Below, piece by piece: positions 40,237 to 42,254 of a stretch of DNA of 44,292 bases; the first letter of the stretch is position 1, and the number at the start of each line of letters is the position of its first letter. The notes beneath the pieces were generated by a model. The model saw only the letters and a list, made by a program, of their open reading frames with translations, was not told the origin of the DNA and ran no database searches. The stretch comes from Candidatus Geothermincola primus (GTDB lineage: Bacteria; Actinomycetota; Geothermincolia; Geothermincolales; Geothermincolaceae): NCBI GenBank assembly GCA_015711725.1, contig JACVIX010000009.1, positions 1 through 44,292 on the forward strand, written 5' to 3'. The position numbers and the translations under genes are program-made.

Positions 40237-40644
40237 TCAATAATGTACCTGCATGGCTCGGGGCGGGCAGACGCGCACACAGAGCTCACACGCCACGCAC
40301 TTCTCTTCGTCAAAGCCTACCTCCATGGTATCCCTTTTTAAGTAAAGCGCCTCGGAGGGACATATCCCCGTGCATACCCCACAGTGGGTGCACCTGAGCT
40401 CATCCCGCCGAACGTCCTGGGAGAGGGGTTGAATGGTTATGCCCAAATTCTCCAGATACCGCACCCCTTTCGCGAAATTCTCCTCCTCGCCGCTTAACTC
40501 CAGCACCATTAATCCCTCTTCCCGAGGAGTGATAAAAGCCTTGAGGATGTTGAAGTCGATATCGTAATCCCGCACCAACTTGCTGATTATGGGCTGATCC
40601 ACCTGTTCATGGGGAAAGTGAAGCACTACCTTCCTGCGCACCAT
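40237..40644 (-). CDS. NIL-domain ferredoxin protein of homocysteine biosynthesis
   Basis: 135 residues: an N-terminal NIL domain (about 1-78) and two [4Fe-4S] motifs, C85-x2-C88-x2-C91-x3-C95 in CTHCGVCTGICP and C116-x2-C119-x2-C122-x3-C126 in CVACELCVRVCP. In Methanosarcina the homologous NIL/ferredoxin protein, together with a DUF39 protein, is needed to make homocysteine from aspartate semialdehyde and sulfide. Here it begins immediately after the DUF39 stop (TAAATG), with AAGGGGGTG as ribosome site inside the DUF39 end, so the pair is tightly coupled. Family pairing is known; the activity in this organism is inferred. Confidence 0.92.
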   Translation of the reverse strand: MVRRKVVLHFPHEQVDQPIISKLVRDYDIDFNILKAFITPREEGLMVLELSGEEENFAKGVRYLENLGITIQPLSQDVRRDELRCTHCGVCTGICPSEALYLKRDTMEVGFDEEKCVACELCVRVCPPRAMQVHY

Positions 40645-41832
40645 TTAATCACCCCCTTCTTGATAAGCTTTATCTCTGGCCGGGCAGGGGAGAAGTTGAA
40701 CCGGTTCGGTGAGAAGAAAACTACCCTGCTCAATCAAGGATTTAAGCGTTTGGGCGATCTCCCGAGCCCTCGGATAGCTGGAGAGCGGGGCGGTGGGAAC
40801 CTTTTTGCCCTCAATTTCTATCCAACCGCTCTTCAACTGCGCGTAACTCACCTCTCCGATAACTTTTCCCGTGCCCTGGGGGTAGTCATAGGAATAATCC
40901 ACCACTGGAGCGAAGAGATCCGCATCGCTTACCGCCGCACATCTCACTACTTCCTCGTCCAATACCGGGATGGGGATACCCAGTCCCACGGCAAGGGTCG
41001 CCCCGTAGCCCAGGAAAGAACAACCCACCAGCCATCTGCTGTCCATGCCCTTAAGATCCCCCAACACCGCGAGGGTGCCCGCTGGCAATCGAGGCGCGCC
41101 GGTCTCGGTGCGGGGAACGTCCGGATTATGCTGGGTTCCCTGCCAAACCACATATCCGATCCCGCCCCCAAGAAAGATACGCGTCCCTATCCCGATAGTG
41201 CGGAAGTAAGGGTCGTTGAGGAGCGGCGAGAGTTGGCCAGCGCTGCAATAGTTGGCGTTTCCCAACTCCGGTCGGAGCATTCCCATATAGGTATATAAGA
41301 CGCGATCTGAGCGGTTAACGGCAACGTTGTAGTTCTGATAAGCGTTGCGCGGGTTGAATAGCACCGCTTCTTTTACGTCCTGTAAAGTGATCTCTCGCTC
41401 CCAATGTTTGGAGGGATAACAGTCCGTACCATAGGAGAAAGCCTCCATCCTCACCTTGCGGCCCGCCACCAGATCCTCGATAACGTGGCCTCCCCCGTAC
41501 TTGAACTCCCCTGGAAACACCTCGTTCAACGGATCGTTCACGGCTAACTCGGTCGCTCCGATATAAATATCCACCGCTGCAAGGCCGGCGTAAGCGGGTA
41601 CCCCGTTTAAAAGGACACGGTTTATCTTGATCCTTGGCTTACTGTGACCTAGATTGATATAGGCTCCCGAGGAACACATGGGACCGAAGGTACCGGTGGT
41701 GATCACATCCACCGTGGAAGCCACGTCCTCCAATCCTTTCCGCTCCACTAAATCGATAATCTCCTCGGCGGTCACCACAACCGCTTTCCCCTCTTTAATC
41801 TTCTCGTTTATCTCGGCGATCGTCTTTGCCAT
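40645..41832 (-). CDS. DUF39-family homocysteine biosynthesis protein
   Basis: 395 residues. DUF39 proteins act with a NIL/ferredoxin partner in sulfide transfer to aspartate semialdehyde to give homocysteine, the methionine precursor. Visible landmarks are TFGPMCSSGAYINLGH (about 48-64), with a conserved cysteine likely to carry sulfur, GGGHVIEDLVAGR, LYTYMGMLRPELGNANYCS and GTRIFLGGGIGYV. A frame extends upstream to 41886, but the ATG at 41832 has AGGAGGAGG close by and gives the usual start MAKTIAEINEK. Archaeal members often end in CBS domains; none is seen here. Its transcript carries the T-box leader at 41921-42220, which reads a methionine codon. Confidence 0.92.
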   Translation of the reverse strand: MAKTIAEINEKIKEGKAVVVTAEEIIDLVERKGLEDVASTVDVITTGTFGPMCSSGAYINLGHSKPRIKINRVLLNGVPAYAGLAAVDIYIGATELAVNDPLNEVFPGEFKYGGGHVIEDLVAGRKVRMEAFSYGTDCYPSKHWEREITLQDVKEAVLFNPRNAYQNYNVAVNRSDRVLYTYMGMLRPELGNANYCSAGQLSPLLNDPYFRTIGIGTRIFLGGGIGYVVWQGTQHNPDVPRTETGAPRLPAGTLAVLGDLKGMDSRWLVGCSFLGYGATLAVGLGIPIPVLDEEVVRCAAVSDADLFAPVVDYSYDYPQGTGKVIGEVSYAQLKSGWIEIEGKKVPTAPLSSYPRAREIAQTLKSLIEQGSFLLTEPVQLLPCPARDKAYQEGGD

Positions 41833-41920
41833 GAAAATACCTCCTCCTATATCATCGATAATGAATGGGCGATGGAGAAGGCTCACGCATGATCCATAAC
41901 AACGTCACCACCACCTTCCT

Positions 41921-42220
41921 TAAAAAGATAAAACCCGCCGGCGATGAAGCGAGCCAACGGGTTTTCATACCACTTATGATCAGGTACGGCGTTTTACACG
42001 CGATACCCTAGCCCATGGTAACGGGGGCATCCGTCCTCGCCTACTCGCGGAGACAACTCCCTTTCGACGGGAAGCTCCAGGGCCATCTTCGGCTCGCTCT
42101 CACGCACCGATTCTCAACTTCAGCTCGGCTCTCTGTAGCGTTACCCACGAGCTTACTCCTCCCCTTCATCGCCTTTCTGCCGTTTTTTATTTTTCAAGAT
42201 GAAAATATGATGAAATATTA
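41921..42220 (-). promoter_or_regulatory. T-box leader, probably methionine-specific
   Basis: On the minus strand the leader shows Stem I with GGGGAGGAGTA (AGTA box at about 42154-42157), CAGAGAGCCGAG, GAATCGGTGCGTGAGAGCGAG and GAA-g-ATG-GCCCTGGAGC. The specifier ATG is at 42084-42086. Next come the Stem III region and the T-box core AAGTGGTA (41966-41975), whose TGGT can pair with the tRNA acceptor end. A 13-pair terminator (AAAACCCGTTGGC with GCCGGCGGGTTTT, 41930-41965) and T-run (41921-41929) follow. ATGAA after the TGGT can instead pair with TTCAT in the terminator loop, giving a competing antiterminator. The alternative reading of the specifier is GAT (Asp) one base earlier; methionine fits the downstream homocysteine genes. 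Confidence 0.85.
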
Positions 42221-42224
42221 ACTA

Positions 42225-42254
42225 ATTATCCCCATCATATAATCTTTTTGTCAA
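42225..42254 (-). promoter_or_regulatory. Promoter of the T-box/DUF39 unit
   Basis: Perfect -35 TTGACA (42249-42254), 18-base spacer, -10 GATAAT (42225-42230) on the minus strand. Transcription would start near 42218, just before Stem I of the T-box. Confidence 0.65.

Follow-up and report, generated by a model that had tools for sequence, protein, structure and literature searches.

We propose that the HcyBio-NIL operon of Candidatus Geothermincola primus is governed by two methionine-supply sensors in series, a transcriptional T-box and a translational leader peptide, and judging from the sequence we lean towards this arrangement. The analyzed DNA, hereafter the window, is a stretch of 44,292 nucleotides (contig JACVIX010000009.1, positions 1 to 44,292). 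We give roughly even chances to the more specific view that the leader holds an undescribed leader-peptide regulator with the core [LVI]-[W/C]-x-Met, which is common to Actinomycetota, Chloroflexota and Spirochaetota and masks the HcyBio ribosome-binding site, and which in Geothermincolales stands behind a methionine T-box, so that methionine supply would be read twice by two unrelated RNA mechanisms. The leader element is apparently undescribed and apparently absent from Rfam.

The source order, Candidatus Geothermincolales, belongs to Candidatus Geothermincolia of the Actinomycetota, and the organism is an uncultured anaerobe whose family adjoins that of Solincola; contigs of Candidatus Solincola tengchongensis (L061) place it within this order too. 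The leader runs from about 42250 down to 41832 on the minus strand and, as the original prediction had it, precedes a DUF39/NIL homocysteine operon: the homocysteine synthesis gene HcyBio/DUF39 (40645..41832, minus strand, likely ATG start at 41832; PF01837, 514.9 bits) is followed on its 3' side by the gene of a NIL and 4Fe-4S ferredoxin partner (40237..40644, minus strand; PF09383 and PF00037). In Desulfovibrio, genetics showed that homocysteine synthesis requires both DUF39 and the NIL/ferredoxin protein (PMC5764234). The 99.7%-complete genome yielded no enzyme of the MetB/MetC/MetY type (PF01053), so HcyBio is the sole recognised homocysteine route, which is consistent with end-product control. 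The leader also has the consensus promoter of its own that had been predicted, a sigma-70-type TTGACA-18 nt-GATAAT (42225..42254, minus strand) that agrees with the consensus at 11 of 12 positions; the region contains two promoter-like sites, compared with 0.6 expected in shuffles.

The T-box is probably not the sole control of HcyBio, because a second conserved element, made of a short ORF and a helix masking the ribosome-binding site, lies between the terminator and the gene. Its conserved sequence, GGTGGTGACGTTGTTATGGATCATG (41912-41888, minus strand), overlaps the leader ORF MTLLWIMREPSPSPIHYR (41852..41908, minus strand), which starts with GTG, stops with TGA and carries the conserved [LVI]-[W/C]-x-M core. 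A ribosome-binding site, AAGGAAGG (41914..41921, minus strand), identified by its SD score, stands 5 nt before the GTG at 41908, and the core itself reads TTA TGG ATC ATG (L-W-I-M; 41888..41899, minus strand), giving one pattern match in the genome and none with the reversed pattern. For frame 1, 34 of 35 sequences have an in-frame start preceded by a ribosome-binding site (5/35 for frame 3), and none of the 31 non-redundant cores contains a stop; frame 3 was rejected as the coding frame since stops occur in 8/31 cores. Conservation in frame 1 also beats column shuffles (1/300 as high), whereas that in frame 2 does not (102/300), and the members with W-x-M-P-G show synonymous changes (CCC GGC, CCT GGA, CCC GGT). 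The A directly before TGG/TGT is invariant beyond what the peptide alone requires, and for this reason we consider the sequence evidence that the leader ORF is translated to be good but not final; part of the constraint on the core may act at the RNA level, and frame 2 (AUG GAU CAU G) may be an alternative frame of the core. An RNA hairpin of the form UAUG-GRY-CAUG was considered for the core and rejected, as it is broken by members with AAUG or AGAAUG.

Downstream of the core, CCUUCUCC (41874..41881, minus strand) forms the 5' strand of a predicted helix, H1, whose 3' strand is the HcyBio ribosome-binding site itself, GGAGGAGG (41840..41847, minus strand); the two strands can form 8 bp, and in many members the pairing takes in the HcyBio start codon as well. 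When the strands were exchanged among members, with one member taken per group, the duplex energy averaged -18.1 kcal/mol for own partners and -13.8 kcal/mol for swapped ones, and 0/5000 swaps were as low. The advantage of own over swapped partners was also seen separately in Geothermincolales and in Chloroflexota, and there was no such difference in 54 leaders without the element. Compensatory pairs occur at several positions, A-U/U-A/C-G/U-G at one and C-G/A-U or C-G/U-A at others; in locus L193, the pairing strands are CAUGUGUUGCCC and GGGUAACACAUG. H1 is weak or missing in about five members (L191, L197, L198, L203, L112). Because H1 covaries and the core lies inside the ORF, a DNA operator was set aside as an explanation of the core.

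An arrest peptide, or an RNA motif, that senses some other cue (a small molecule, or Trp/Cys) could use the same H1 as its output. The W or C two codons before Met, the invariant A before that codon and the Pro found 3-4 codons past Met in most members are in line with such a sensor, but it is the Met codon that never varies, the gene makes a methionine precursor, and W to C changes arose in more than one lineage; we therefore think another cue unlikely, and methionine supply is the cue assumed below.

The T-box upstream of this element was recovered when the Rfam model proposed for the purpose was run over the leader: RF00230 matched 41875-42178 on the minus strand over its full model length with 82.6 bits (E 1.8e-18) at a permissive threshold, which falls below its gathering cut-off of 93 bits, and a scan of the window at the curated gathering cut-offs gave no match whatsoever. 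At E<=10 the HcyBio leader is the single RF00230 match in the 3.17 Mb genome. Taking the model match and the order alignment together, the T-box (stem I, AG bulge, specifier loop, stem II/III region and UGGU) spans 41969..42178 (minus strand). The predicted sequence hallmarks were all located, among them AGTA (42157-42154), the stem I motif ACAGAGAG (42136-42129) and CTGGAGC (42080-42074), all seen in the sequence on the minus strand, together with UGGU and the terminator; the competing hairpin, on the other hand, is not predicted to be stable. Across 14 sequences of the order, identity averages 80% over the T-box columns, and stem I, stem III and the terminator-like hairpin are conserved. The T-box is present in 13 relatives of the order and lies upstream of HcyBio in 13/13; nearly all related genomes with one T-box carry it just upstream of HcyBio, and the pairing of T-box and HcyBio recurs in family f4 of the class. 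As far as sequence can tell, the HcyBio leader is thus a genuine methionine T-box that has diverged somewhat. Canonical T-boxes scoring above the Rfam cut-off, with a GAAC-AUG specifier, were also observed upstream of HcyBio in two other loci of the same phylum (L031 and L040, of genomes G032 and G049), and further T-boxes of the phylum (L003, L004, L005) lie upstream of genes that we take, by eye, to be TrpB-like, the short fragment giving no Pfam match.

The leader element has a wider distribution. Searching the class with the pattern GGTGRTGN7TATGKRYCATG, and with the reversed pattern as control, we found it in 15 of 31 genomes, all 15 from Geothermincolales, and the control gave 0; there is one match per genome, except for two in G008, and all lie upstream of HcyBio. 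In G008 the element is tandemly duplicated upstream of HcyBio (L043). With a refined pattern, 17 of the 156 genomes of one Chloroflexota order showed 19 matches in all, against a control of zero, and 19/19 precede HcyBio, one of them at a contig end that shows only the start of the gene; a relaxed pattern added one genome, and an unbiased look at 60 more HcyBio leaders of this order added four carriers. Among 30 HcyBio leaders fetched from Spirochaetota, the element is found in L288, L290 (the same as L112) and L296. A broad pattern applied to the 393 genomes of the class of G059 gave mostly chance matches, and these were retained only if they stood before HcyBio. At the gathering threshold, no Rfam family matched the element, either in the window or in 17 loci that bear it. 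On the HcyBio tree, the element appears at three or more positions: in the window's clade, in a clade with G001 (L035) and the Spirochaetota L112, and in Chloroflexota.

Several individual cases were noted on the way. G001, a member of the window's family, carries the element (L035, 2730-2800, minus strand) with no T-box match and an HcyBio of another clade; the gene ahead of its HcyBio presumably is cysK, and the same arrangement is seen in the Spirochaetota L112. Two HcyBio genes each are present in G059, G061, G063, G371, G502, G520, G523 and G488, with the element on both or on one of them. Two members of the order, both with incomplete genomes (L044 and L053, of G014 and G017), have an HcyBio with neither a T-box match nor the element.

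If the operon were regulated by the T-box alone, through antitermination by tRNA-Met, the ORF and helix further down would be incidental, and there are indeed leaders with only a canonical T-box before HcyBio, in f4 (L009, L010, L015, L029) and in L031 and L040. However, the element is conserved as a single copy in each genome, the control giving 0, it recurs in genomes that have no T-box and in other phyla, and H1 covaries, which leaves regulation by the T-box alone rather improbable, slightly more so than a different cue.

The acceptor-sensing half of the T-box is where the methionine T-box of the original prediction holds least well: its Met specificity stood (see below), but this half is atypical, and the second conserved element had been overlooked. 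The leader has a UGGU (41969..41972, minus strand) that is a candidate for pairing with the ACCA at the 3' end of tRNA-Met, but the surrounding T-box consensus is not conserved, and the canonical T-box sequence AGGGUGGNACCGCG is missing from the window leader and from the whole order. T-boxes of family f4 have the canonical GGGUGGUACCGCG or nearly so, whereas the window's order is without it. In the order alignment, the UGGU in the bulge is kept only by the window and G002, the others having GGGUGAU, GGGAGAG or GGGACGA, and in several relatives of family f3 the bulge has no UGGN. For the window leader, an antiterminator that leaves UGGU free in its bulge is not predicted to be stable, reaching only -0.3 kcal/mol when the fold is forced, and a simple fold of the entire leader was uninformative (z -1.9). 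The terminator-like site that follows, AAAACCCGTTGGC..GCCGGCGGGTTTT with a U-tract (41922..41965, minus strand), has a predicted energy of -19.4 kcal/mol, and its arms diverge among relatives yet remain complementary. It seems that the order's T-box is an example of T-boxes losing the canonical acceptor-binding sequence.

RF00230 placed its 3' half further downstream, on a GGUGGU that is the ribosome-binding site of the leader ORF, and we attribute this stretched match to the diverged T-box sequence of the order and the want of a stable antiterminator. The same placement could be taken to mean that the element is the relocated effector of a translational T-box, in which a GGAAGG-UGGU...CCUUC antisequestrator would bind uncharged tRNA-Met and free the HcyBio ribosome-binding site: Rfam put the T-box domain exactly at the element, its own GAAGG can pair with CCUUC, the strand masking the ribosome-binding site, and control of translation has been predicted for the T-boxes of actinobacterial ileS (PMC1262725). 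Yet G003 and G004 have UGAU in that place, the Chloroflexota members lack stem I of a T-box and often UGGN too, and genera g4 and g5 have a 5' arm of only some 3 bp, all of which makes a translational T-box very unlikely.

The specifier was predicted to be ATG, and the alignment agrees. AUG occupies 42084..42086 (minus strand) in GAAG-AUG-G-CCC-UGGAGC, in the specifier columns where the relatives of the class have AUG and the ileS T-boxes have AUC. GAAG-AUG-G is found in 14/14 Geothermincolales leaders of the order alignment, and the relatives of family f4 have GAAC-AUG-G, so AUG is conserved and GAU is not, and GAU cannot be the codon. AUC fills these columns in T-boxes before presumed ileS genes (L017 and L025, recognized by eye from the start of the protein, the short fragment giving no Pfam match) and before an HMGL-like gene (L007), which was confirmed by PF00682 and was the sole Pfam confirmation among the short N-terminal fragments checked; in L002, GUC precedes a protein whose start resembles IlvD. 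Both tRNA-Met genes end in ACCA, to which the leader UGGU is therefore complementary, and bacterial tRNA-Asp normally has G73. An Asp (GAU) or other specifier is thus hardly credible: moving one base upstream does give GAU in the window leader and its order relatives, but the GAAC-AUG-G relatives and the alignment to ileS-type T-boxes of known amino acid, which use the same three columns, rule it out, and UGGU fits ACCA.

We infer the following steps from the sequence and by analogy with T-boxes and translational attenuators already known. When charged Met-tRNA is scarce, uncharged tRNA-Met would bind the AUG-specifier T-box, diverged as it is, and prevent the terminator at 41965-41922, so that transcription proceeds. 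In the resulting RNA, the segment just after the core Met codon would pair with the HcyBio ribosome-binding site (H1) and hold translation low. At low Met-tRNA, a ribosome translating the leader ORF would stall at its Met codon, cover the H1 strand and free the HcyBio ribosome-binding site. Both responses would increase homocysteine synthesis.

The T-box shares AGTA, ACAGAGAG, the specifier loop, stem III, the terminator, UGGU and an AUG specifier with those described by RF00230, but here its target is HcyBio in an actinobacterial class, its score is below the cut-off and a second control element stands behind it. The closest T-boxes are the Met-specifier ones on methionine genes of Lactobacillales and Staphylococcus and those on actinobacterial ileS. 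As in translational attenuators, the leader has a short ORF with a ribosome-binding site upstream and a ribosome-binding site sequestered, by prediction, by the leader RNA. In ermC-type translational attenuators, stalling on a leader ORF releases a sequestered ribosome-binding site, and the cue is an antibiotic; the logic of leader ORF and stalling is alike, whereas the cue of the HcyBio leader is probably the methionine supply of a biosynthetic gene. Unlike classical attenuators, the HcyBio leader has one Met codon only. Its nearest analogue would be the LEU element of actinobacterial leuA (Seliverstov et al. 2005, PMC1262725), where the Shine-Dalgarno box of the gene base-pairs with the leucine codons of a leader-peptide ORF. 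The LEU element combines consecutive leucine codons with a pseudoknot, in contrast to the HcyBio leader, which has a short [LVI]-[W/C]-x-Met core with no codon run and occurs in three phyla. The SAM riboswitch RF00162 is also found on HcyBio, directly upstream of the gene in Bacillota (L063, L064, L069, L071, L083, L099, L103), but it senses SAM, and it has no match in the window. Earlier surveys of Actinobacteria reported ileS as the only gene with T-boxes and methionine operons as having no RNA element (PMC1262725; PMC2494555), and the open-access literature that we searched contained no account of DUF39 under a T-box or leader peptide, which is weak evidence of absence.

Regulation of the sulfide-dependent homocysteine route has hardly been described. 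Our comparison suggests that unrelated RNA sensors act on the same gene depending on the lineage: Bacillota have a SAM riboswitch, Geothermincolia a Met T-box, and three phyla a short leader peptide that contains Met. As a sensor, the leader is compact and testable and, if it is indeed stacked behind the T-box, would allow one amino acid to be read at two levels, which would be unusual.
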